Source: a virus. Taken from it: a DNA stretch of 21,147 nucleotides. Under the pieces are notes generated by a model. That model was given only the letters and a program-made list of their open reading frames with translations. It did not search any database and was not told the DNA's origin. A program made the translations under genes and the position numbers. The stretch covers positions 1 through 21,147 of the IMG/VR virus record IMGVR_UViG_3300030102_003594, one strand, 5' to 3'. Every line of letters begins with the position of its first letter. The first letter of the stretch is position 1. Below, one piece after another: positions 889-19,721 of the stretch.

Positions 889-1479
889 ATGGCATCAGTC
901 GTCGATATCTGTAACTCAGCGCTGAACCAGATCGGTGCGTCGAACATCATCAGCCTGACTGAAGACAGCAAGGCTGCGCGGATCTGTAACCAGCGTTATG
1001 ACTTTATCCGCGACTATGTGTTTCGAGCTCACCCCTGGAACAGCCTGATCCAGCGCGTGGCGCTGGCAGCAGACACAGCCACGCCGGCTTTCGAGTTTGC
1101 AAAACAGTTTTCATTGCCGACAGATCCATTCTGTCTGCGCGTCCTCAGCCTCGATGACCCCGACATCATTTTTCGCGTCGAGGGCCGCAAGATCCTGACA
1201 GACGAAAGCACGATCAATCTCAAATATGTCGGCCGGATCACAGATCCCAATGCTTATGACACGCTGCTAATCGAGACCATAGCAGCCGCCCTGGCAGCTG
1301 ACCTGGCTTATCCCTTGGTCGGCAGCGCCACCCTGGGCGCAAATATGAATGTGTTCTACCAGGAGAAACTCAAGGAGGCTCGCTTCGTGGATGCAACCGA
1401 GGACAACCAGATCAACACCTCGGACACCAGCATCTCGCAAAACTTCTCGGCTGATACATTTATCAATGCGAGACTCTGA
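889..1479 (+). CDS. Tail tubular protein A (T7 gp11-like head-tail adaptor)
   Basis: At 196 residues this matches the length of T7 gp11, the dodecameric adaptor between portal and tail nozzle. The N-terminus VDICNSALNQIGA followed by KAARICNQRYDFIRDYVFRAHPWN is the typical start of the gp11/tail tubular A family. The middle (FAKQFSLPTDPFCLRVL) and the helix IETIAAALAADLAYPL also fit. The protein should assemble under the portal as a structural ring and has no enzymatic role. It starts at ATG 889 after AGGGG. Its stop overlaps the nozzle gene start by one base (TGATG), as expected for two proteins made in fixed ratio. Confidence 0.9.
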   Translation: MASVVDICNSALNQIGASNIISLTEDSKAARICNQRYDFIRDYVFRAHPWNSLIQRVALAADTATPAFEFAKQFSLPTDPFCLRVLSLDDPDIIFRVEGRKILTDESTINLKYVGRITDPNAYDTLLIETIAAALAADLAYPLVGSATLGANMNVFYQEKLKEARFVDATEDNQINTSDTSISQNFSADTFINARL

Positions 1480-3752
1480 TGGCCAAGGCATCCCCGAGCT
1501 TTAGCAACTTCACGGCCGGTGAGCTGAGCCCCCGCCTCGATGGGCGCACAGATATCGCCAAATATTTTAACGGATGCAAAACGCTTCAGAATTTTGTTGT
1601 TCATCCGCATGGTGGGGCAAGCCGCCGACCAGGCACAATATTTATAAGAGAGGTCAAAAATAGCGCCCACAACGTCCGGCTGATACCTTTCGAGTTCAAC
1701 ACCGAGCAAGCCTATGTCCTGGAGTTTGGCGATCAACATTTCAGAATCCATAAGGATGGCGGCACGGTTGTATCGAGCGGCAGCCCGGTCGAGGTAACGA
1801 CTCCCTACCTTCACACCGAGCTCGAGGACATTAAGTTCACGCAATCTGCGGACGTGATGTATGTCGTCCATCCCAACCATGCGCCCAGGAAGATCACGCG
1901 CACCAGCCACACAGCCTGGACGATCACGGCTGTGGACTTTCAGCGTGGCCCGTTCCAGGACGACAACCTGACCAGCACCACGCTGACAGCCTCAGCTCGC
2001 ACCGGCACTGTGACCATCACCGCAAGCGCCAGCACCTTCGCCAGCACAGATGTCGGGCGCCTGGTCAAGCTGCACCACGGCTTTGCCAAGGTTGCCAGTT
2101 TCAGCTCGGCGACATCTGTCACCGCTGCCGTCCAGGAGACAGCTGACGGCCGGGCTGAGCTGGCGCCAAGCTACACAGCGACGACGCTGAGCTTTCATGA
2201 GGGCGACCCGTCTGCGACCGGGCTCGAGCACAATGACCGGATACAGGACAGCGCCGGCAACTTCTTGACCGAGGGATTTGCTGTCGGCATGAAGATCTCT
2301 GTCTCGGGCGCCGGCACAAGCAACAACAACGAGAGCGGCGCCATCATCGTCCAGATTACCGAGGACACGATGCTGCTGTCTCCGGTCGCAGATCTGACCG
2401 ACGAGGCAGCTGGCTCGAGCGTGACGATCTCAGGCGATCTGGTGGCAGACAGCAGCTTTGCCCTGGGCGCTTTTTCTGCAACGACCGGCTTCCCAGCTGC
2501 AGTCACCTTCTACGAGCAGCGCCTTGTTTTCGCTTCAACAACCGAGCAGCCGCAGACAATATTTTTCTCGGTAGGTGGCAGCTTCGAGGATTTCACAGCA
2601 GGCGTCAGTGCAGCTGATGCGCTGATATACACGCTCGGATCGAACCAGGTGAATGTCATCCGCTATTTGCAAAGCGGTCGGGTTCTGCTGGTCGGCACCT
2701 CGGGCGGCGAGTTTGTTGTCACCAGCTCAGAAAACGCGCCGCTAAGCCCAACCAACACAGTCGTCAAGCGCCAGGCAACCTACGGGTCCGCCAACATCCA
2801 GCCGGTCCAAGTGGCCAACGTGACGCTGTTTGTGCAGCGCGCTAGGCGCAAGCTGCGCGAGCTGGTGTTTGACCTGAACACAGACAGCTACCAGGCGCCG
2901 GACATGACGCTCCTGGCCGAGCACATAACGACCAGCGGCATCAAGGCAATGGCGCTGCAACAGGAACCAGACAACGTCGTCTGGTGCGTCCTGGAGAACG
3001 GCAAGTTCGTCGGCATGACTTACAGGCGCGAAGAGAACGTGATTGCCTGGCATGAGCATTTGCTTGGTGGCAGCTTTGGATCTGACAGCTTCGCTCATGT
3101 GGAAAGCGTGGCAACGATACCTGGCGCCCTGGATGAAGATCAAACCTATCTGATTGTTAAGAGGACCATCGGTGGAGCGACTAAAAGATATGTTGAATAT
3201 TTTAATTTCTTTGATTTCGGAGACAATAAACTTGACGCCTACTTTGTTGACTCGGGGCTGACCTACAGCGGGTCAGCTGCAACAACGATCAGCGGTCTGG
3301 ATCACCTCGAAGGCCAGACTGTCCGCATCGTGGCAAATGGCGCCACCCACCCCGACAAGGTGGTGAGCAGCGGACAGGTCACTCTCGATTTTTCTGCAAC
3401 CAACGTACATATCGGCCTCGGTTACACCTCGACACTGCAAACCATGCGGATTGATGCCGGCGGCACAGAAGGCACGTCACAGGCAAAGACCAAGCGCATC
3501 CATGAGGTCACGCTGAGGCTGTTTCGCACAGTGGGCGTGGAGGTCGGCAGCTCGACTAGCGAGCTCGACCGGATCCCTTTCAGATCCTCGGCGGACGCGA
3601 TGGATTCTGCTTTGCCGCTTTTTACAGGTGACAAGGAGGTCGAGTTTCGAGGGGGCTTCGATACTGACGGCTTTATTGTTGTGCAGCAGTCCCAAGCGAT
3701 GCCTATGACGATCCTATCGATCATGCCGCGTCTCATCACCTTCGATCAATGA
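1479..3752 (+). CDS. Tail tubular protein B / tail nozzle (T7 gp12-like)
   Basis: A 757-residue virion protein close to the size of T7 gp12 (794 aa), placed directly after the gp11-like adaptor. The N-terminal SFSNFTAGELSPRLDGR, then the stretch AKYFNGCKTLQNFVVHPHGG and RRPGT, is a signature of the nozzle/stabilisation proteins of many podoviruses. YEQRLVFAST near residue 345 is a second conserved spot. Residues of about 155-330 are Thr/Ser-rich and predicted all-beta, probably an insertion on the nozzle surface. It should form the hexameric tail tip channel that binds the fibres and lets DNA and ejection proteins pass. The gene overlaps the next one by four bases (ATGA). Confidence 0.88.
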   Translation: MAKASPSFSNFTAGELSPRLDGRTDIAKYFNGCKTLQNFVVHPHGGASRRPGTIFIREVKNSAHNVRLIPFEFNTEQAYVLEFGDQHFRIHKDGGTVVSSGSPVEVTTPYLHTELEDIKFTQSADVMYVVHPNHAPRKITRTSHTAWTITAVDFQRGPFQDDNLTSTTLTASARTGTVTITASASTFASTDVGRLVKLHHGFAKVASFSSATSVTAAVQETADGRAELAPSYTATTLSFHEGDPSATGLEHNDRIQDSAGNFLTEGFAVGMKISVSGAGTSNNNESGAIIVQITEDTMLLSPVADLTDEAAGSSVTISGDLVADSSFALGAFSATTGFPAAVTFYEQRLVFASTTEQPQTIFFSVGGSFEDFTAGVSAADALIYTLGSNQVNVIRYLQSGRVLLVGTSGGEFVVTSSENAPLSPTNTVVKRQATYGSANIQPVQVANVTLFVQRARRKLRELVFDLNTDSYQAPDMTLLAEHITTSGIKAMALQQEPDNVVWCVLENGKFVGMTYRREENVIAWHEHLLGGSFGSDSFAHVESVATIPGALDEDQTYLIVKRTIGGATKRYVEYFNFFDFGDNKLDAYFVDSGLTYSGSAATTISGLDHLEGQTVRIVANGATHPDKVVSSGQVTLDFSATNVHIGLGYTSTLQTMRIDAGGTEGTSQAKTKRIHEVTLRLFRTVGVEVGSSTSELDRIPFRSSADAMDSALPLFTGDKEVEFRGGFDTDGFIVVQQSQAMPMTILSIMPRLITFDQ

Positions 3753-4195
3753 ACGCTATCGATTACGAGGCAGCTCACCTCGAGCAGCTGATGGGCGGCC
3801 AGCTCAATGCTGGAGCGGAGCGTCTGGGATACATGATGCAATATGCTCACCGCCTCGAGCAGCCTGGCTGGGCCTTTACGGCCATTGATGACGGCGAGGT
3901 TCTATTTTGCACAGGCATTGTGGATATGTGGCCTGGGACTGGTGAGGTTTGGTTTATCGGTAGCCAGGATATCCACAGAAAGCCCAGGAAGGTCATCGAA
4001 TATTGCAGGGGCGCTATGCGCCGCTGTGCCTTGGAGAACGACCTGTGGCGCATCCAGGGAGTTTGCAGGGCAGACTGGCCGAGCGCTCTGCGGTTTGCAG
4101 AGTTTTTCGGCTTTGTAAATGAGGGGCTGATGCGCCGCTATGGCCCCGAGGGCGCAGATTATTACAGGGTAGCGTGGTTCCCAAATGGGCATTGA
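3749..4195 (+). CDS. T7 gp13-like internal virion protein A, GNAT-fold
   Basis: A 148-residue protein of the T7 gp13 family (T7 gp13 is 138 aa), needed for assembly of the internal core in T7. Its sequence resembles a GNAT acetyltransferase fold: AFTAIDDGEVLFCTGI is the central strand pair, VWFIGSQDI a strand, a helix of about residues 78-92 (HRKPRKVIEYCRGAMR) follows, and ALRFAEFFGFVNEGLMRRYG is the C-terminal region. The classical acetyl-CoA loop (Q/RxxGxG/A) is not visible, so catalysis is doubtful. It sits between the nozzle gene (4-base overlap) and the gp14-like gene (11-base overlap), matching the T7 order 11-12-13-14. Confidence 0.8.
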   Translation: MNAIDYEAAHLEQLMGGQLNAGAERLGYMMQYAHRLEQPGWAFTAIDDGEVLFCTGIVDMWPGTGEVWFIGSQDIHRKPRKVIEYCRGAMRRCALENDLWRIQGVCRADWPSALRFAEFFGFVNEGLMRRYGPEGADYYRVAWFPNGH

Positions 4196-4688
4196 AACAG
4201 CACTTTTCGCAGCAGCAGCCGGCACGGCAGCCGAGGCTTACGGTCAATATCAAGTCGGCAAGACGCAGCAAGCTGCTTATAACTTCAACGGCCAGATCGA
4301 TGAACGCAACGCCAAGGCTGCTGACCAGCAAGCTGAGCAGATCCGGCTGGCGGCAGATCTTGAGGCCATCAAGTTCCGCAACGACTTTCAGCGGCTGCAG
4401 GATGCTACCGCCCAGGCCAACCGATATAACGGCTGGATGGCTGACACCGGCACCCCGCTCAAGGTCGCCCTGGCAAACGCGACCGAGGCCGAGGAGGAGC
4501 TGGCGATAGCTGACTACAACGCCAGCATCGGGGCTGCCCAGGCTCGAGAGAGCGCGGTTCAGTCCAGGATGTCATCCCAGCTCAATCAGATGTATGGCCG
4601 GGCAGCTCGTCGGGCAGGGGCGATCAACGCCGGCAGCAGCCTCCTGGCTGGTGCGTCTAATATCGGCTATATCAGGGCAACGGCATGA
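4185..4688 (+). CDS. Internal virion protein B (T7 gp14-like)
   Basis: A 167-residue protein (T7 gp14 is 196 aa) that in T7 is ejected first and forms a pore in the outer membrane. It opens with a hydrophobic Ala-rich segment (ALFAAAAGTAAEA). A long helical region rich in Ala, Gln and charged residues follows (about 35-140). It ends in a Gly/Ala/Ser-rich segment (GAINAGSSLLAGASNIG). This membrane-prone end plus helical middle layout is usual in the gp14 family. Its place between gp13-like and gp15-like genes, overlapping both (11 and 4 bases), supports the call. There is no signal peptide or enzyme motif. Confidence 0.78.
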   Translation: MGIETALFAAAAGTAAEAYGQYQVGKTQQAAYNFNGQIDERNAKAADQQAEQIRLAADLEAIKFRNDFQRLQDATAQANRYNGWMADTGTPLKVALANATEAEEELAIADYNASIGAAQARESAVQSRMSSQLNQMYGRAARRAGAINAGSSLLAGASNIGYIRATA

Positions 4689-6523
4689 GGGTTCCAACCT
4701 ACCAATCGCAGGGCAAGCGGACCACAGAGGTCTCTGCACGTCAGCTGAATGTCAGAGCCAATGCTGGCGCCCTGGCTGCCGAAAGTCAGGCTTTCGCCAA
4801 TTTAGGGCAAACTGCGGCGAGGGTCGGTTCAACCTGGTTCGAGCAATCGCTGAAAGCAGAGCGCGCCGGCCAGCTCAAGAGCGCAGAAAACCAGCTGGCT
4901 CAAAAATTGAGGGATGTTGAGATCCAGGCGCTCAACACAAATCCTGCGGATGTCCCAACGCTCTATGAGCAAGAGACGACGGCCGCTATCGCAACCATCA
5001 CCAGTGGCATCAAGGATCCCGTCGTGCAGCGCCGCTTCAAGGGTAGCGCAGCCACGGCCACACTAAACAAGAGCGTCACCATTTTTAAAGATGCGCGCCT
5101 TCGCGGCATTGATCAGAACATGGCGAGCTTCGACACGCGCATCGATGAACGAATCAACACCATTGCAACGGGTGGCCGAGCTGATGCTCATGCGGCAAGG
5201 GTCGAGCTTTTTGGCGGTAGAGCAGCTGACGGCTCCCAGGTTGCCGGCATCTTCGAGGAGATGGCTGACGCTGGCTATATCAAGGCGACAGACATTGCCG
5301 CCAGGAGGCAGACTGCAGAGCAGCGCATCGACTTCCTGAGCGCGCAAAGCATCCTCAATGGCGTGGCTATCCGGCGCTCAGCAGAAGACGCTGAGAGTTT
5401 TCTTATTACGCTGCAGGATCCAAAGAAGTTCACAAACATGAAGCCCGAGAAGCGCGAGCAACTTATCAACCGCACCAACACCCTGGCGGTGACGTTGCGC
5501 CGCGCAGCCAACGCAGAAGCTGCCAAGGCTGACGCAACTGCAGCTCGAGAGCTGAAGAAAACACAGGACACCAACTTCGCCCAGCTGATGACCCAGGTGC
5601 GCCAATCCCGTCAAGGCGTCGAGGGTGTAGCCATGCCGACCATGCTTGATGTCATCGAGCACCAGGGCAACCGGACGTTGACCGATACCCAAGTGACGGC
5701 GCTCGAAAAGGCCATCCTGGGCCAGGACGCAGCTGCTACAAATACAGTCACGCTGGCTGGCTTTTACGCAAGGCTGGATCAGGCTGAAAACCAGGAAGAC
5801 ATCGATCAGCTGATGGCTGACGCGCTTACACATATTGGCCCTAATGGCGATATCCAGCTGCAGGACTTCCTGAGCCTCAACGCCTACAGCAACGGTCTGA
5901 TGGATAAGACCCCGCGCGCTATGGAGATCAAGCGGGTCAACAAGTTGCTGCGGAGCGCCATAGGTGACAGCGACGTGAGCTTTGGCAGCCAGTTTGATCC
6001 TCAGTTCATGGGGCAACTGCGAGCTGATGCCATTGACACCTATCACCAGCTCGTCCATGACACCGGCCGAGAAGATCCGCTTGAGCCGAAAGAAGCGTTT
6101 AATATGGTCATGCGGATGTTCAACGATGCAAAGACGCAGTCGCTGACCTTCCTGGCGCCGAGCTCAACTGTCCTGGATCTGATTGCAGAAACAAATCCAG
6201 GAAACGCTCAAAAACTTAAAAAGTTCAACACCTGGAGCGAGTTTGATCTCGAGAACGCCAGCAGGCTCGTTGCGGAATCTAAGAAACTAACGCCATTGCA
6301 AAAAGCTCTTGAGCTCGAGACCCTGCTGCTCATTGGGGAGGCAGTACGCGAGAGACAAAGGGCCCTGGAGCCAGCCGTTGATACCAACGCAGAGAGGGGC
6401 GAGGGCGGCCCTAACGAGACAGACGACAATCAAAGCCTGCTCGAAAAACTTCAGTCCTACATAACTGGGGGAGACGGCGGCACAACCCAGGATCGCTTGA
6501 AACGTATAGAGGAGCGGGGCTGA
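4685..6523 (+). CDS. Internal virion / DNA-ejection protein (T7 gp15-position)
   Basis: A 612-residue, almost wholly alpha-helical protein with no cysteine that I can see. It sits where T7 has gp15, the tube-forming ejection protein that bridges the periplasm. The N-terminus is basic and polar (VPTYQSQGKRTTEV). Long Ala/Glu/Arg/Gln-rich helices follow to about residue 565. The last 50 residues are acidic and probably disordered (ERGEGGPNETDDNQ). I find no lysozyme or transglycosylase motif. Function is inferred from position, helical character and coupling: ATGA overlap with the gp14-like gene, TGATG overlap with the next. Sequence similarity to T7 gp15 itself is not evident by eye. Confidence 0.65.
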   Translation: MRVPTYQSQGKRTTEVSARQLNVRANAGALAAESQAFANLGQTAARVGSTWFEQSLKAERAGQLKSAENQLAQKLRDVEIQALNTNPADVPTLYEQETTAAIATITSGIKDPVVQRRFKGSAATATLNKSVTIFKDARLRGIDQNMASFDTRIDERINTIATGGRADAHAARVELFGGRAADGSQVAGIFEEMADAGYIKATDIAARRQTAEQRIDFLSAQSILNGVAIRRSAEDAESFLITLQDPKKFTNMKPEKREQLINRTNTLAVTLRRAANAEAAKADATAARELKKTQDTNFAQLMTQVRQSRQGVEGVAMPTMLDVIEHQGNRTLTDTQVTALEKAILGQDAAATNTVTLAGFYARLDQAENQEDIDQLMADALTHIGPNGDIQLQDFLSLNAYSNGLMDKTPRAMEIKRVNKLLRSAIGDSDVSFGSQFDPQFMGQLRADAIDTYHQLVHDTGREDPLEPKEAFNMVMRMFNDAKTQSLTFLAPSSTVLDLIAETNPGNAQKLKKFNTWSEFDLENASRLVAESKKLTPLQKALELETLLLIGEAVRERQRALEPAVDTNAERGEGGPNETDDNQSLLEKLQSYITGGDGGTTQDRLKRIEERG

Positions 6524-7920
6524 TGCAGGAGAACGATCCCATCGAGCGTTTTGTCGCTGCCCGTCATTCGCAGCGCGGCAAGTCTCTGTTCGAGCAGATG
6601 CACTTTATGAATAGCGAGATGCCGATTGACGTGGACTATGTCTACGACAACGACATCACAGATCCTGGCAGGCCATCAGGACCGACCGAGGACGAGCTGA
6701 TTGCTGACCCACAGTTCCAGGCTGCCTCCAAGGTTGTCTTCGATGCCTTTGGTGGCGAGGGCAAAGCTGATCGCCAGTATGGCATGATGATGGGCCAGGA
6801 ACCGCCTAAGACCCGCGAAGATTACGCGAAGTGGGGCATGGAGTTCATGGGCTGGTTTAACTACAACCTCCCGCAGATGGGCACCATTAGCTATAAGGCC
6901 AGCCAGATGGAAGAGGGCGGCATGGAGCGCTTTGCCCTGTTCGAGCTGATGGAGCTCTACGATCAAAAGCAGATCAGCTGGTCCGGCACCCGCCGCTTCT
7001 GGACAGGGGTGCTGACAGACCCATCCACATACCTGGGACTCGGGACTTTTGGGATCGGGGTTGCCGGCCGTACAGGCGTAAAGACTGCAACCAAGGCCGG
7101 GCTCAAAGAGATCCTCAAGCGTAGTGCTGGCACGGCAGCTGCGCTTGAGGCTGCAGCTTATGGCGCTGCTGATGATGTCATGCGCCAGAATGTGAAGATC
7201 GGAGCCGGCCAGCAAGGCGAGCTCGACTTTACACAGACCGCTGCAGCAGCTGGCACAGCTGCGCTGCTGGGCGGATCTGTCGTCAAGGGCGCACAGTTCC
7301 TGGCTGACAAGCTGCCGACAAATCAGCTGATGACCAAGATCTATGACGGCGCAGATGAGGCCCAGGCCGACCTGGTCGGTTTCCTCAAAGAGTTTTCAGA
7401 GCGGCCCATCGAGACGGGCGAAGCTGCAGTCATACCAGAAAACCAGCCCAAGGTTGCTGATCCAGGGCTCAAGGATCCCGCGACGGCAAAGAAGAAGGTC
7501 AAGCGCAAGGGCTACAAATCGCCCGAGCAGCTGAGCGATATCGTGCGCGCCGGCATCGCTGTTGATCGTCCTGACGAAGCCCAGGCACTGGTTGATAAGC
7601 TCGCCGATAATTTTGAGATTGTTGATGAAGGGTGGGATGCCAAGCCTGGCGGTTTCTTTGACCGCAAGGTGATGGTCAGGCTGCCAAACAACAAAACCGG
7701 CGAGCTGCAGATCTATTCTCAAGAAATCGGCAATATCAAAGAGGATCTGCACAAGGTTTACACAGAAGCCCGTGAGATCGAAAAAGATCCGAAACAGCAG
7801 GATAAATATCAGGATCTGCTCAAGCAGAGTGACGCCATAGCAGCTCAAGCCCTGACAGCTGGTGCAGCGATATGGCAGCCCATCTACGACCAGATGAACC
7901 TGACGGTCCCTGGCTTGTAA
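6523..7920 (+). CDS. Presumed ejection protein with a RelA/SpoT-like region
   Basis: A 465-residue protein of the internal-core block. Residues 150-260 include Gly/Ala-rich, membrane-prone stretches (TYLGLGTFGIGVAGR, then GTAAALEAAAYGAA and TAAAAGTAALLGGSVV). Residues of about 324-420 differ: a basic lead (KKKVKRKGYK), LSDIVRAGIAVDRPDEAQAL, NFEIVD, KPGGFFDRKVMVRL, GELQIYSQE and YTEAREIE. This order resembles the RelA/SpoT nucleotidyltransferase fold (D..R..I.V, GY.S.H, EIQI). Glu394 would match the catalytic Glu of the EIQI strand; the family's GY.S.H reads GFFDRK here, so activity is uncertain. No lytic transglycosylase motif is seen. Function in ejection is inferred from its place between two core genes. 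Confidence 0.6.
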   Translation: MQENDPIERFVAARHSQRGKSLFEQMHFMNSEMPIDVDYVYDNDITDPGRPSGPTEDELIADPQFQAASKVVFDAFGGEGKADRQYGMMMGQEPPKTREDYAKWGMEFMGWFNYNLPQMGTISYKASQMEEGGMERFALFELMELYDQKQISWSGTRRFWTGVLTDPSTYLGLGTFGIGVAGRTGVKTATKAGLKEILKRSAGTAAALEAAAYGAADDVMRQNVKIGAGQQGELDFTQTAAAAGTAALLGGSVVKGAQFLADKLPTNQLMTKIYDGADEAQADLVGFLKEFSERPIETGEAAVIPENQPKVADPGLKDPATAKKKVKRKGYKSPEQLSDIVRAGIAVDRPDEAQALVDKLADNFEIVDEGWDAKPGGFFDRKVMVRLPNNKTGELQIYSQEIGNIKEDLHKVYTEAREIEKDPKQQDKYQDLLKQSDAIAAQALTAGAAIWQPIYDQMNLTVPGL

Positions 7921-7954: not shown

Positions 7955-10900
7955 ATGTCGATTGATCCCAACGCTCCAGAAGCGCTGGCGAATCAGGTCG
8001 GCTTGGCGGGTGGGCTCCTTGAGCCGCTAACAGGCGCCGAGCTCACGCAACCTGATCCCAGCGCTTTTGATTTTAGCCAAGACCCCGACAGTGAGTTCGA
8101 TCTCATAGCACCTATCAAAACGGTCGAGCAGGACGAGATCCAGCTGGCCATGTCTGGGCCTATCAGCAAAAACCTGGCGCGACTTATCGGCTTCGACTTT
8201 AGTGGCACGTTTGGCGATGCTGCAAAGAAAGTCGATGACATGCAGGCCAACCGGGGCAACCTGGACACCAGCGGCCGCACGGATGTCGAGGGTGAGCAGC
8301 TGACCTTCGAGGACGGCGTCTATGCGCCGTATGAGCGGGGCAGCGTCCTGCCAAATCTAAGGGCCGAGGGCGAGATGCCCAACCTTAGATTCGACAAGCC
8401 TAAGCTGGCAGATGAAGAGCGCGCTCAAATGGTCATCGAGGGCGTGGACCGTCAGGTTGAAATCCAGCCTGACGGGATGCTGGATGACTTCCGAGCTGTC
8501 GGATCTAGGGGCGATGAAAAGATCCCTGACGAGGGCCGGGTGCTGAGCACCATTCAGGCGATCAGCTCGACTTACTCGGGCCAGATTAACGAGGCCAAGC
8601 GCGGCGAGATCACCACCGAGGCCACCAGGCAGATGGCTGACATCCTGGGGATGGACGCCAACAAGCTCTCGAAAGCCATCCTGGGCCGCAAGCCCGGTCA
8701 AGCAATAAGCCTCACTGGCCCAAATGGCCAACCAGTAGGGATGGCTGAGGCGATGCTGGCATCGAGGGATCTGCTCGTCACAGAAATTAAATTCCTAGAC
8801 GAGCTGGCCAAGAAAGCAGAGACCGGCACAGACGAGGACGCGCTGCGCTTCCGCGAGCAGCTCGAGCTGGTCACCCAGCTGCAGATGCAGATCAAAGGAG
8901 CCCAGACAGAGATTGCCAGGGCGCTCGGTCAGTTTCGGATACCGGCCAGGGGTGGCCAGGCTGGCGCTGCTGCAGAGACCAGGTCGGCTGACATCACGAC
9001 GCTGCTCGAGGAGTATGGTGGGGCTGAGGATGTCCGCCTCATGGCCAGAGCGTATCTTGAGGCTGGATCGGTTGCAGATCGTGCTGCGATTACCAGGGCC
9101 GGCAGCAAGTTCAAAAAATTCACTGATGCGTTTTACGAGGCCTGGATCAACATCCTTCTCAGCAATCCTATCACCCATATCAAAAACAACGTCGGCAACA
9201 TCCTGATTATGGGCGCGCATGTTGCCGAGACAGGCATGGCTGCCACCGTAGGCACCGCCAGGCGCGCTATGGGCGGCGAGGGCGGCGTCTATTTCGGCGA
9301 GGTTCAGGCTCAGCTCTTTGGCGCCATGATGGCCATGCAGGATGCCTGGTCGGCATCAGGCAAGGCCTTCAAGACTGGCGAGGCGCCTATCCTGGGATCA
9401 AAGATAGACGGTCAGCGCGGGAAGCGGCCGGTCAGAGCTTTCTCAGCTGAGGGCTTCGAGGCTCAGGGTCCGCTTGGAGTCACGGCTGATGTTCTTGGCA
9501 GCGCATTTACCCTGGGCCGGGCTCCCACAAAGATGCTTGAGTTCGAGGACACCTTCTTCAAGGTTGTCGCGCAGCGGATGAGTCTATACCAGCAAGCCTA
9601 TCGCACAGCCAAGGGCGAGGGCCTGACAGGTGATGCGCTGAGCTCGAGGATCGCGGAGTTCGTTTATGACCCGCCGGCATCAGCTCTGAAAGAAGCTGAC
9701 GCTCACGCTAAATATGTCACCTTGCAGACTGACCTGGATGCAGCTGGCAAAGCACTGAACGGGGTCCGCAAGATCCCAATGGTCAGATATTTTCTGCCCT
9801 TCTTTAAGACGCCATACAACGCGGCGAAGTACGCGATGGTCGAGCGCTCACCGATAGGCTTTTATTACGGTGAAAGTGCAAGAGCGATCAAACGTGGCAA
9901 GGCGCCTGGCGCATCGCCAGCCGACAAGGCCGCGGCTGATATGGCGCGCACCAGGATCTATGTCGGCAGCATGACAATGATGACAGTCGGCATGATGGCG
10001 GCAAACGGTCAGATTACCGGCGCCGGACCAGCTGACCCCGAGCTGAAGGCCGCTCTGCGCCGCACTGGCTGGCAGCCTTACTCGATCCGAGTCGGTGACC
10101 AATATGTGAGCTACGCAGGGGCTGAGCCATTCTCAACAGTGCTTGGTCTTGCAGCTGACACAGCTGAGCTCGGCATGAGCTCGAGCCTGGATGGCGCCAG
10201 CTGGGAGCGTGCGCTTATGGCAGCTGGCGGAGCCATTTCTTACAACATGACAAACAAAACATTTCTGCAGGGTTTCTCTAATCTGGTCTCAACCGTCAAC
10301 GATCCTGGTCGATATGCAAATGGTACGGTTGATAGTTTTGTGCGCTCGCTAGTGCCACGGCTGGTTGCTCAGACTGAGAAGATGCAAGACCCCCTGGTGC
10401 GTGAAGCCAGGTCTGTCATCGATCAACTCAAGAGCCAGGTGCCCTGGCTAAGCAACACGCTGCCGGCAAAGCGCAACTTCTGGGGCCAGAAGGTCATGCT
10501 GTCACCGGCCCTGGGCCCGGACTTTCTAAGTCCAATCTACACAAGCACCATTGGGCCCAATCCTGCAGCTGAGGGCGAGAACGCAGCTCAACGAGCCTTC
10601 GATCTCGATCAAATGTTCATCACGCTGCGCTGGGGCCCTGGCAAGCACCCAGATGTCTATTCACAAAACGGCATCAAGGTCGGCCTCAAGCCCAAGGAGA
10701 TCGAGCAGTTTCATATCTACGCCGGCGCCAGGTCGCTCGAGTACATCGAGCAAGTGGTCGAGAGCGATAACTTCCAGCGTCTATTCAAGATCTGGAATGA
10801 CGAGGTCAGCCAGCCGACAACGCTGATGGATGTCCAGGTTGCCGACAAGACACTGACGCCAAGCACCAACGCCCAGGAGGCTCGAGAGCTCTGTATCGAC

Positions 10901-11053
10901 ATGCTGCAGAGCGCAGTGACGGCTGCCAGGCAACAGGCTCGCAAGGATCTGTTTAATGATCCGACCTATGGGCCTGAGATCGAAAGCGCATCCGAGGACT
11001 ACATCCAGCTCATGCAGCAGAAGAACGACACCATAAGGGATATGATGCGATGA
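7955..11053 (+). CDS. Large internal virion / DNA-ejection protein (T7 gp16-position)
   Basis: A 1032-residue protein, the largest of the window, in the place of T7 gp16 (1318 aa), which forms the inner-membrane end of the ejection channel. Residues 1-390 are polar and probably partly disordered. From about residue 390 a conserved phage region begins: WINILLSNPITHIKNN, then FEDTFFKVVAQRMSLYQQAY. PMVRYFLPFFKTPYNAAKYA follows, with a Met-rich hydrophobic segment near 672-690 (MTMMTVGMMAANG). The region continues with GAGPADPELK, then GWQPYSIRVGDQYVSY and AEPFSTVLGL. I know this region from large ejection or polyvalent proteins of many podoviruses. Unlike T7 gp16, no N-terminal transglycosylase motif is visible. 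The ATG at 7955 follows GGTAGGA; the stop overlaps the fibre gene by four bases. Confidence 0.75.
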   Translation: MSIDPNAPEALANQVGLAGGLLEPLTGAELTQPDPSAFDFSQDPDSEFDLIAPIKTVEQDEIQLAMSGPISKNLARLIGFDFSGTFGDAAKKVDDMQANRGNLDTSGRTDVEGEQLTFEDGVYAPYERGSVLPNLRAEGEMPNLRFDKPKLADEERAQMVIEGVDRQVEIQPDGMLDDFRAVGSRGDEKIPDEGRVLSTIQAISSTYSGQINEAKRGEITTEATRQMADILGMDANKLSKAILGRKPGQAISLTGPNGQPVGMAEAMLASRDLLVTEIKFLDELAKKAETGTDEDALRFREQLELVTQLQMQIKGAQTEIARALGQFRIPARGGQAGAAAETRSADITTLLEEYGGAEDVRLMARAYLEAGSVADRAAITRAGSKFKKFTDAFYEAWINILLSNPITHIKNNVGNILIMGAHVAETGMAATVGTARRAMGGEGGVYFGEVQAQLFGAMMAMQDAWSASGKAFKTGEAPILGSKIDGQRGKRPVRAFSAEGFEAQGPLGVTADVLGSAFTLGRAPTKMLEFEDTFFKVVAQRMSLYQQAYRTAKGEGLTGDALSSRIAEFVYDPPASALKEADAHAKYVTLQTDLDAAGKALNGVRKIPMVRYFLPFFKTPYNAAKYAMVERSPIGFYYGESARAIKRGKAPGASPADKAAADMARTRIYVGSMTMMTVGMMAANGQITGAGPADPELKAALRRTGWQPYSIRVGDQYVSYAGAEPFSTVLGLAADTAELGMSSSLDGASWERALMAAGGAISYNMTNKTFLQGFSNLVSTVNDPGRYANGTVDSFVRSLVPRLVAQTEKMQDPLVREARSVIDQLKSQVPWLSNTLPAKRNFWGQKVMLSPALGPDFLSPIYTSTIGPNPAAEGENAAQRAFDLDQMFITLRWGPGKHPDVYSQNGIKVGLKPKEIEQFHIYAGARSLEYIEQVVESDNFQRLFKIWNDEVSQPTTLMDVQVADKTLTPSTNAQEARELCIDMLQSAVTAARQQARKDLFNDPTYGPEIESASEDYIQLMQQKNDTIRDMMR

Positions 11054-16038: not shown

Positions 16039-16355
16039 CACAGAAAAAACTGGAGAGGTCGAGCGAGTTCGAGCGCTATGACCTGGACAATGATGGCGTG
16101 GTCACTGACGCAGAGATCGAGCGCGCTCGTGAAATCCGGGAGACAGAAGACAAAAGCCGCAAGCACTTAGCGCAGCTCCGGCTTGCGAGGTATGCGCTGA
16201 TCGGAATGGGCGTCTACACGGTTCTGCTTTTTATGCCGTTTATACCCGATAGCCGCATCAAGTTACTGAGTGAGGTTAGCCCATTGCTTTACATCAGCTT
16301 GTCTGGCGTCGTGGGCGCGTACATGGGCTTCACGCAAATGGGAGATAAAAAATGA
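16035..16355 (+). CDS. EF-hand, two-span membrane protein in the lysis module
   Basis: I chose the GTG at 16035, which forms a GTGA overlap with the preceding stop; the longer reading from 15942 would lie inside the previous gene. The 106-residue product starts with a polar helix and then a canonical EF-hand loop, DLDNDGVVTDAE, with D16, D18, D20, G21, T24 and E27 in the ligand positions. A charged helix follows (EIERAREIRETEDKSRK), then two membrane spans (residues 53-70, ALIGMGVYTVLLFMPF; and 84-101, LLYISLSGVVGAYMGF). Two spans and position directly before a holin suggest a holin/antiholin-type protein whose cytosolic EF-hand may bind Ca2+. The calcium role is inference. It overlaps the next gene by ATGA. 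Confidence 0.65.
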   Translation: MTQKKLERSSEFERYDLDNDGVVTDAEIERAREIRETEDKSRKHLAQLRLARYALIGMGVYTVLLFMPFIPDSRIKLLSEVSPLLYISLSGVVGAYMGFTQMGDKK

Positions 16356-16747
16356 TACAGGCGCTTATTGGGCCGGTGACTGGCCTGCTGGACAAGTTCA
16401 TTGAGGACAAAGACCAAAAGGCGCGGCTGGCGCATGAGGTCGCCACGATGGCCCAGAACCACGCCCAGGAGTTGGCGAAGGGCCAGCTTGAAATCAACAA
16501 GGCAGAGGCACAGCACCGCAGCATCTTTGTCGCTGGGTGGCGTCCTTTCGTGGGCTGGACATGCGGCATTGCCTTGGCTTGGCATTTCGTGCTGGCACCC
16601 CTGACCATGTTTGTATGCGCTTACATCGGCGTCACCATTCCAGAGTTGCCCACCTTTGATATGTCGTCATTGCTGACCGTGCTAATGGGCATGCTGGGCC
16701 TTGGTGGACTACGCACATTTGAAAAGACCAAGGGCATTGCAAAATGA
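16352..16747 (+). CDS. Holin of the GTA three-TM type
   Basis: A 131-residue membrane protein. The stretch QLEINKAEAQHRSIFVAGWR (residues 45-64), continuing PFVGW, is the signature of the three-TM holin family (Pfam GTA_holin_3TM) shared by alphaproteobacterial gene transfer agents and phages. Hydrophobic segments lie at about 66-95 and 104-121. The N-terminal 40 residues form a charged amphipathic helix. It should assemble lesions in the inner membrane that let the lysozyme out. The gene is coupled by ATGA to the EF-hand protein upstream and by ATGA to the lysozyme downstream. Confidence 0.85.
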   Translation: MIQALIGPVTGLLDKFIEDKDQKARLAHEVATMAQNHAQELAKGQLEINKAEAQHRSIFVAGWRPFVGWTCGIALAWHFVLAPLTMFVCAYIGVTIPELPTFDMSSLLTVLMGMLGLGGLRTFEKTKGIAK

Positions 16748-17196
16748 ATATTGATGTTTTGCGTGAGCAAATTGCCAGTGACGAAGGCAAAAAATATGAG
16801 GTGTATTTGTGTTCAGAAAATCACCCGACCATGGGCATTGGTCATTTGATAACGACTAATGACCCAGAGTATGGACAGCCCATCGGCACAGAGGTCAGTG
16901 AGGATCGGGTAAATGAAGCGTTTGACAGCGACATAAGGACAACGCTGGATGACTGCCGAATCATCTTTGATGACTTTGACGGAATGCCAGAGGAAATTCA
17001 GCTTTGCCTGGCAAACATGGCGTTTCAACTTGGCAGGCCCACATTGACCAAGTTTCGCAAATCTGTGGCCTATGCAAATGATGGTGATTGGTCGTCCCTT
17101 GCAGATGAGATTTTAGACAGCCGCTGGGCGCAAGAACAAACGCCACACCGCGCCAACCGCATCAGTGACCGTATCAAGGCAGTAGCTGATGGCTAG
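16744..17196 (+). CDS. Endolysin, T4-type lysozyme (GH24)
   Basis: A 150-residue muramidase that cuts the glycan strands of peptidoglycan. The N-terminal SDEGKKYEVYLCSENHPTMG followed by IGHL aligns to the T4 lysozyme active site without gaps. Glu14 matches T4 Glu11, Thr29 matches Thr26 and His34 matches His31. The position of T4 Asp20 is Cys23. The E-8-x-5-T spacing is kept. Later parts fit GH24: LCLANMAFQLGRPTLTKFRK and then SRWAQEQTPHRANRISD (T4: QTPNRAKRV). No signal peptide is present, so export depends on the holin. It overlaps the holin by ATGA and the following basic protein by eight bases. Confidence 0.92.
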   Translation: MNIDVLREQIASDEGKKYEVYLCSENHPTMGIGHLITTNDPEYGQPIGTEVSEDRVNEAFDSDIRTTLDDCRIIFDDFDGMPEEIQLCLANMAFQLGRPTLTKFRKSVAYANDGDWSSLADEILDSRWAQEQTPHRANRISDRIKAVADG

Positions 17197-18437: not shown

Positions 18438-18473
18438 AATACTCCTAGTTAAAGATCAAATGGGAGCAAGTTG

Positions 18474-19721
18474 ATGAGAGATTTATCCGTAAAGTTTTGG
18501 AAGGAACGGGGATATTATGTGATCAACGCCGCGCGTGTTGGGTTGAGTGTTAATCACGGAAATTTTGCTACCAAGGGTGAAGCGGTTAGAGAGGCAGAAA
18601 GATTGAAAGCACAGTTTGTCCTTGGCCAGGATGTCGAGGCCAAAGCAAAGCCGAAATTGTTTTCAGTCCATGACGCGCTTGATGACTACCAAGCCAATCA
18701 AGAGTTGTTGCAAACCAAGTCGTATCATGAAGCACAAAAGTTTAATTTGAAATTACTGGCGGCTGTGAAATTCAAAGGCATCCCAGTTGGCAAGCATCAG
18801 ATGGAGCGACTTGGCCGGAAGGCAGAGCGCGAAGATTTCAGGACGTGCATTCAATTAGCAATCACAAGTGAAGGCAAAAGCGTTGAGACTATGCAAACCC
18901 GTCGTAAGCATTGGTCAAAGTTTTTCAAGTTTGCGGCTGGCAAGGGATGGATCGACGCGAATCCGATTGAAGACATCCAGCTTCCCAAGCCCAGCAAAAA
19001 AGATGTGCGCGCTCCAAAAGTGCAGCCCGGTTTTATCGCTTGGCTGCAAACTGACGCGCTCGACGCGCACGCTGCCGCTTTCAAAAAAGCAGCAGAGAAA
19101 AAGTTCAAACATGGTCAACGCAACCATCTGACTATAAGCCCAGCAAAGCTGGAATTGATGATCCTGCTGTCAATCACCACCGGCCTGCGTCAGGGTGAGT
19201 TGCGTGCCCTGCGCCGGTGCGACTACTCACCTAACAGACAAATCATTTCTATCCGCGGTGGCATTGATCACGGCACACAAACGATTGGCCGTGCAAAAAC
19301 TGAAGAAGGTCAAGACCGCGACATTGAGGTGCCGCAGGCAGTTTGTGCGATGCTGGACGACTTGCTCGAAAAAAGCAGATTCCAAGATTTTGATGACTTG
19401 GTGTTCCCGTCAACGACTGGCACGCCGCTACGCAAAAACGACTTTTGTGCGGCCATCAAGCCCATGCGTGCAGTCTGCCCTTTTAAGGATGAAGAAACGG
19501 GCAAGCCGCTGCATTTCTTGTGGGCAGACATGCGCCACGCATTTGCTAGCAACATGATCAATCAGCTTGGTGCAAACTGGGTCGATGTATCAGAATCAAT
19601 GGGCCATACAAACCCAGAGTTTACTAAGCGGCGTTACGGCCATTACATCGAAGATGAAGCAAAGAGCCAGCGCAAACGCGATGCGGCTGGCGCAGTGTTG
19701 GTAAAAAAGAAGGGGCGCTAA
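18474..19721 (+). CDS. int: Tyrosine-family site-specific integrase
   Basis: A 415-residue recombinase that should integrate the phage at tRNA-Glu. I start at ATG 18474, seven bases after GGGAG, rather than at the in-frame TTG at 18471. Residues 1-60 are a basic arm-binding domain (FWKERGYYVINAARVG), and 62-190 contain the core-binding SAM-like domain. The catalytic domain shows Arg239 (TTGLRQGELRALR), probable Lys275 (RAKTEEG), Arg354 (ADMRHAFAS), His378 (MGHTNPEF) and the nucleophile Tyr388 (KRRYGHYI). The box II motif normally HxxR reads AxxR (Ala351). The gene is directly downstream of the attP-like region and converges with the minus-strand operon, whose terminator lies in its last codons. 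Confidence 0.92.
   Translation: MRDLSVKFWKERGYYVINAARVGLSVNHGNFATKGEAVREAERLKAQFVLGQDVEAKAKPKLFSVHDALDDYQANQELLQTKSYHEAQKFNLKLLAAVKFKGIPVGKHQMERLGRKAEREDFRTCIQLAITSEGKSVETMQTRRKHWSKFFKFAAGKGWIDANPIEDIQLPKPSKKDVRAPKVQPGFIAWLQTDALDAHAAAFKKAAEKKFKHGQRNHLTISPAKLELMILLSITTGLRQGELRALRRCDYSPNRQIISIRGGIDHGTQTIGRAKTEEGQDRDIEVPQAVCAMLDDLLEKSRFQDFDDLVFPSTTGTPLRKNDFCAAIKPMRAVCPFKDEETGKPLHFLWADMRHAFASNMINQLGANWVDVSESMGHTNPEFTKRRYGHYIEDEAKSQRKRDAAGAVLVKKKGR

Follow-up and report, generated by a model that had tools for sequence, protein, structure and literature searches.

A RelA/SpoT-type domain in a split gp16-like protein of a podovirus: a candidate virion-borne pyrophosphokinase

Some phages carry enzymes in the virion that act at once, T4 Alt and N4 vRNAP being familiar examples, with a chemistry different from that of the domain described here. 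T4 Alt is an injected enzyme. RelA/SpoT domains were predicted in 2017 in phage polyvalent and MuF proteins, being described for Spirochaete and epsilon-proteobacterial (pro)phages and for MuF fusions, and an alarmone-like response was proposed (Iyer et al. 2017, PMC5512222). Assays of (p)ppApp synthetases borne on MuF proteins have followed, and among the MuF toxins the synthetase Apk2 is paired with the hydrolase Aph1 (PMC12226406). In such enzymes GYxSxH forms the guanosine acceptor loop and GYxGxN the adenosine acceptor loop; Apk1/SaEAS use an Arg three residues after the syn2 Asp (R330/R124), whereas the tRNA-modifying toxSAS FaRel2 has its syn2 Arg at D+5 (D90/R95) and the lysines K66/K74 (PMC11782079). 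The T7 internal virion protein gp16 is tetrameric in the core, is ejected, and is believed to cross the inner membrane with its C-terminal part in the cytosol (PMC8954989).

The window analysed in this work is the whole 21,147-base virus record IMGVR_UViG_3300030102_003594. Its 465-residue protein resembles the polyvalent proteins in carrying a RelA/SpoT domain and in being a phage product presumed to travel in the virion and to be injected, but the carrier is of another type: a gp16-like ejection protein of a podovirus, divided between two open reading frames (ORFs). With the Apk2 MuF toxins of temperate phages and with Tas1/Apk1 it shares the Apk-type syn2 (D..R), the ATP-site residues and, in a sister group, a hydrolase partner, and head-borne delivery as in Apk2 is predicted for it. 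Unlike them, it has neither a MuF domain nor an IapK-like immunity gene that we could find, its syn3 is of the form GYxD rather than GYxGxN, and its activity is a prediction. The toxSAS enzymes FaRel2 and CapRel have in common with it the SYNTH fold and the position of the G-loop tyrosine; they differ in the place of the syn2 Arg, and no toxin-antitoxin pair was seen with the window domain. An earlier, sequence-only reading of this DNA had called the delivery of such an activity at infection a new phage strategy, a claim that the reports of 2017 and on MuF-borne synthetases anticipate: RelA/SpoT domains on virion-borne polyvalent and MuF proteins are already known (PMC5512222, PMC12226406). 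New are the use of a podovirus ejection protein as carrier, the subfamily with GYxD, a portal fusion and the paired hydrolase. A limited literature search, which is no proof of absence, turned up no gp16-type protein reported to carry a RelA/SpoT domain.

The synthetase fold

The region originally proposed to be RelA/SpoT-like (window positions 7492-7790) encodes, in frame, residues 324-422 of the 465-residue protein, and the motifs put forward for it, LSDIVRAGIAV, KPGGFFDRKVMVRL and GELQIYSQE, are indeed present. The SYNTH domain, however, begins upstream of these limits, near residue 309, preceded by helices that start around residue 268, so that the ATP-binding residues K317 and K325 are included (Table 1). 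Structure prediction had been suggested as a check, and the AF2 model of residues 268-465 built with 26 sequences (pLDDT 84.6, pTM 0.78) has a nucleotidyltransferase fold. A previous model of a shorter segment with 13 sequences was weak (pLDDT 68), yet pointed to alarmone synthetases; the longer segment and the 26 sequences resolved it. In VIA-align, structural rows 1-29 for the newer model were all alarmone synthetases, RSH or toxSAS proteins (Z 15.5 to 8.3), with RelQ at Z 15.5 (173 aligned, rmsd 3.7), Tas1 at 14.0, SaEAS at 12.6 and CapRel at 11.1, while the first non-alarmone row had Z 7.8 and the rows from there down included many pol-beta-type nucleotidyltransferases. The best 50 Foldseek matches of the same model were all RSH/SAS proteins, and the best matches of a viral-library fold search were polyvalent proteins (ART-PolyVal, DdrB-like) and proteins named RelA/SpoT.

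Profile comparisons agree with the model. Among solved structures, a family profile combining the window group with the group around Bordetella phage PHB04 matched Tas1 (E = 1e-8) and RelA (E = 8e-4); in hhalign a profile restricted to the window clade scored 36 against 20 bacterial RSH domains, the maximum for 200 column-shuffled decoy profiles being 21.7. Against Tas1 the window-clade profile, too shallow for this purpose, gave E = 0.38 and ranked below an unrelated glucosidase. Taken alone, the window domain had PF04607 as its sole match (E = 0.05, profile positions 4-94) with 14.3 bits, short of the curated cut-off of 27 bits, which is a detection threshold and no biochemical feature; PHB04 gp034 lies above it with 30.6 bits, and homologues from other phages passed or approached it. 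The full-length protein had no Pfam match at E<=10, Pfam, NCBIfam and PHROG scans of its ORF returned nothing useful, and a genome search with PF04607 did not have the window's domain among its matches. A phmmer search of the PDB with the C-terminal 142 residues yielded chance matches only, mostly beta-glucosidases, which were discarded. Because the profile matches, the decoy test, the AF2 model and the structural rows agree, we regard the assignment of residues ~309-420 to a RelA/SpoT-type SYNTH domain (pol-beta nucleotidyltransferase) as settled for practical purposes. By its sequence the domain appears closest to the Apk/(p)ppApp-synthetase branch, and dN/dS values of 0.10-0.25 within it point to purifying selection.

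Table 1. Features of the window that bear on the SYNTH domain, its carrier and the type of phage
Feature	Position	Strand	Evidence or remark
757-residue tail protein	1479..3752	+	phrog_376, E 8e-226; T7 gp12 position
167-residue gp14-like internal virion protein	4185..4688	+	phrog_418, E 2e-6
612-residue ORF, T7 gp15 position (place of internal virion protein C)	4685..6523	+	synteny only
465-residue ORF	6523..7920	+	putative N-terminal part of an internal virion (ejection) protein of T7 gp16 type, encoded in two pieces; C-terminal RelA/SpoT-like domain
Residues 86-237 of the 465-residue ORF	6778..7233	+	homologous to LUZ100 gp47 residues 73-224, 47% identity, E 2e-39
Residues 268-465 of the 465-residue ORF	7324..7917	+	modelled as complete SYNTH fold
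Conserved core of SYNTH domain, about residues 309-420	7447-7782	+	
K317...K325, ATP-binding lysine pair	7471..7497	+	invariant; spacing 8, as Tas1 PIK-x7-K and FaRel2 K66/K74
D339-I-V-R342, syn2	7537..7548	+	metal-binding Asp, Arg at +3 (Apk-type, unlike RSH with R at +5)
G377-F378-F379-D380-R381-K382, syn3/acceptor loop	7651..7668	+	family signature GYxD
E394-L-Q396, syn4 metal/ATP residues	7702..7710	+	Tas1 alignment; invariant
K406, H410, Y413, next helix	7738..7761	+	invariant in phage family; RSH here AE..HW.YK
1032-residue ORF, putative C-part of gp16-like internal virion protein D	7955..11053	+	phrog_6651, E 2e-44; collinear with L099
Lysis cassette	16352-17196	+	GTA-type 3TM holin (PF11351), phage lysozyme (PF00959)
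Tyrosine integrase	18471-19721	+	PF00589, E 2e-15

A split gp16-like carrier and other carriers

The genes stand in the order tail protein (gp12 place), gp13-place ORF, gp14-like gene, gp15-place ORF, 465-residue ORF and 1032-residue ORF; the last two resemble T7 gp16 in homology as well as in their position after gp14/gp15. The protein matched by the N-terminal part, LUZ100 gp47, is annotated as 'internal virion D, similar to T7 Gp16', and the 1032-residue ORF matches 57 phage records, many of them annotated as internal virion protein D, which bears out the earlier identification of a core protein. A single polypeptide of 1747 residues (L099:2-5245) contains a degenerate RelA/SpoT-like domain, in which R342 and Q396 are lost, followed by the gp16 C-part. 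T7 gp16 itself differs in having an N-terminal transglycosylase; LUZ100 gp47, alike in gene order and homology, lacks a SYNTH domain, and none was seen in the gp16-like counterparts from six other phages that are cultured or complete. Given the homology of the N- and C-parts, the single-chain collinearity in L099 and these module-free cultured relatives, SYNTH appears to be an optional module of a split gp16. The carrier is thus very likely, judging from its homologues, an ejected core protein, and by analogy with T7 gp16 the module is likely to reach the cytosol, since it sits between the gp16 N-part and C-part. As to the MuF N-terminal domain of polymorphic toxins, the 465-residue ORF gave no Pfam match of any kind, and its N-part matched a gp16-like protein instead. 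In Methylophilales phage MEP301 (L141:3652-6751) two ORFs that overlap, gp24/gp23, encode the gp16-like protein, and each of them matches the 1032-residue ORF of the window; gp16 seems to have been split at another place too.

The tyrosine integrase is present in three of the 32-37 kb relatives as well, and no T7-type RNA polymerase was found in the longer relatives searched; for these two reasons the window phage is probably best called a temperate podovirus and not an autographivirus.

Relatives of the domain in viral contigs comprise near-identical copies, groups 60-73% identical and a distant group around PHB04 gp034, which is 34% identical to the window domain (tblastn E = 0.04). The domain also occurs on other carriers. 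In L061:3853-6453 it is fused to the C-terminus of a portal protein (PF06381, E = 1e-72), in PHB04 the domain gene adjoins the portal gene, and in L094:3646-6873 a polyvalent protein of 1075 residues, next to a transglycosylase-type core gene, combines a DdrB-ParB domain with a GYxD RelA/SpoT-like domain; like the best viral fold matches, this protein is of the polyvalent kind. Another candidate, L063, was dropped as evidence for a MuF carrier, having a Cys-rich motif and no Pfam support. In bacterial genomes the phage-family profile had a single prophage-like match, in an Oxalobacteraceae MAG, and nothing convincing came from plasmids. A cultured phage of the window type did not turn up in the phage collection searched.

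Active-site residues and the paired hydrolase

Twelve residues (K317, K325, D339, R342, V347, G377, D380, E394, Q396, K406, H410 and Y413) are invariant over 26 diverse phage sequences, in which the others are 20-92% identical to the window; they include Glu394, found where the sequence-only reading had placed it. The K-x7-K pair, the metal-binding Asp and the E.Q pair agree with the ATP/Mg residues of SAS/toxSAS enzymes, and R342 occupies the D+3 place of Apk. Both hallmarks of (p)ppGpp synthetases, the guanosine loop GYxSxH and a syn2 Arg at D+5, are missing (GFFDRK/GYxD; Arg at D+3). The acceptor loop of the window clade in fact bears neither the guanosine (SxH) nor the adenosine (GxN) signature: where Apk has GxN it reads DRK, the equivalents of Tas1 K353/N370 are lost, and GYRDxN is seen in some sister-group sequences. 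The motifs would seem to resemble those of the (p)ppApp synthetases Tas1/Apk1 more than those of RelA, with a distinct GYxD acceptor loop. Since syn2 is Apk-type and Tas1 is the closest relative, an adenosine acceptor is favoured.

A further clue to the chemistry comes from the neighbours of the sister genes. An HD_4 (MESH1/SpoT-like) gene lies just downstream of the RelA/SpoT-like gene in L012:5758-6336 and at least nine sister loci; its alarmone-hydrolase signature is found about 0.85 kb downstream of the domain start in nine PHB04-type loci (motif search) and in L052 (profile search), some of which may be near-duplicates, the samples being related. In the PHB04 genome PF13328 was matched with E = 1e-22, and gp032 with E = 3e-21. 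A small conserved ORF (MVYIENEGALFRGPAR...) separates the two genes in the sister loci. This pairing mirrors Apk2-Aph1 and by analogy supports a 3'-pyrophosphate chemistry in the family. Neither HD_4 nor another recognised immunity gene, and hence no toxin-immunity pair, was found in the window or the window-clade contigs searched. The retention of the ATP/Mg residues and the pairing of the sister genes with an alarmone hydrolase make a pyrophosphokinase activity of the alarmone type plausible.

The loop GFFDRK, in place of the usual GY.S.H, had been taken as a sign that the domain might be inactive or act differently. F378 does equal the Y-to-F change used to impair FaRel2 (Y128F), PhRel2 (Y143F) and FaRel (Y175F) (PMC11782079), and on that account the copy in the window may be impaired or dead. 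Yet no close relative shares GFFDRK, all of them having GYFDRK, and the codon (positions 7654-7656) is TTC (Phe) in the window against TAC (Tyr) in 8/8 clade members compared. The substitution appears to concern one copy of a lineage that keeps Tyr, and the earlier interpretation as a whole is partly supported.

Possible action at infection and its rivals

The explanation towards which we lean, without strong conviction, is that an Apk-branch SYNTH module is cargo in a split gp16-like ejection protein and is delivered to transfer pyrophosphate. The 465-residue protein would be housed in the internal core and leave the virion ahead of the DNA, together with the gp14/gp15/gp16-like proteins; with the order N-part, SYNTH, gp16 C-part, the module may end on the cytosolic side and, as infection starts, would use ATP as the source of a pyrophosphate group for the 3'-OH of an acceptor of adenosine type, most likely ATP/ADP, the 3'-CCA end of tRNA being the alternative. 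ATP and/or host growth functions would be lowered in consequence. Published rates for Apk1/SaEAS are about 1e5 products per minute, and four gp16 subunits sit in the T7 core; on these figures, by our own estimate, a few SYNTH copies per virion could use a sizeable part of the cell's ATP within minutes. Possible benefits would be early host shut-down, exclusion of competitors or a bias towards lysogeny, on which the integrase carried by the window clade bears. A stronger form, in which the ejectosome has a pyrophosphokinase of its own, the gp16-type DNA conduit putting a GYxD enzyme of new specificity into the cytosol before phage expression and the sister hydrolase resetting the signal, is offered tentatively and must be called doubtful.

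Several observations would suit a catalytically dead relic, its SYNTH fold retained by the ejection protein as a spacer with a structural or a nucleotide-binding/DNA-tunnel role: the acceptor loop has diverged, the window has F378, the distant relative L099 lacks R342 and Q396, in wider comparisons the SYNTH region changes more quickly than the remainder of the 465-residue protein, and the window clade has no immunity gene. This is nevertheless unlikely, as the ATP/Mg residues are all invariant, even on unrelated carriers and in sequences that share just 20-30% identity with the window, Phe at 378 is limited to the window, and an alarmone hydrolase is paired with the sister genes. It is improbable, too, that the protein is not ejected at all and acts late in the producing cell or as an assembly component only. 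The separation of its gene from the gp16 C-part would fit such a role, but its place in the gp14-gp15-gp16 row, the homology of its N-part to LUZ100 gp47, the fusion with the gp16 C-part in L099 and the established ejection of T7 gp16 (PMC8954989) all speak for ejection.

The alternative acceptor deserves separate mention. An active pyrophosphokinase working on tRNA 3'-CCA, as toxSAS enzymes of the FaRel2/CapRel type do, would block translation at infection. A hydrolase partner alone leaves the acceptor of a pyrophosphokinase unfixed, CapRel is structurally similar to the model (Z 11.1), and nucleotide signatures are missing from the acceptor pocket. We nevertheless consider it very improbable: the syn2 Arg is at the Apk place and not at D+5 as in FaRel2 (D90/R95), Tas1 is the closest sequence match, and a general block of translation would harm the phage as well.

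Under the preferred explanation, that of a delivered Apk-branch pyrophosphokinase, D339, E394 and residue 378 predict loss of activity, and the HD_4 gene of the sister group predicts the chemistry. Should the domain be active, the part played by phage ejection proteins would go beyond that of a conduit: they would bear exchangeable enzyme cargo, which would act on the host nucleotide economy ahead of viral transcription. The routes by which alarmone synthetases are delivered (T6SS, T7SS and MuF heads) would then extend to the podovirus ejectosome.
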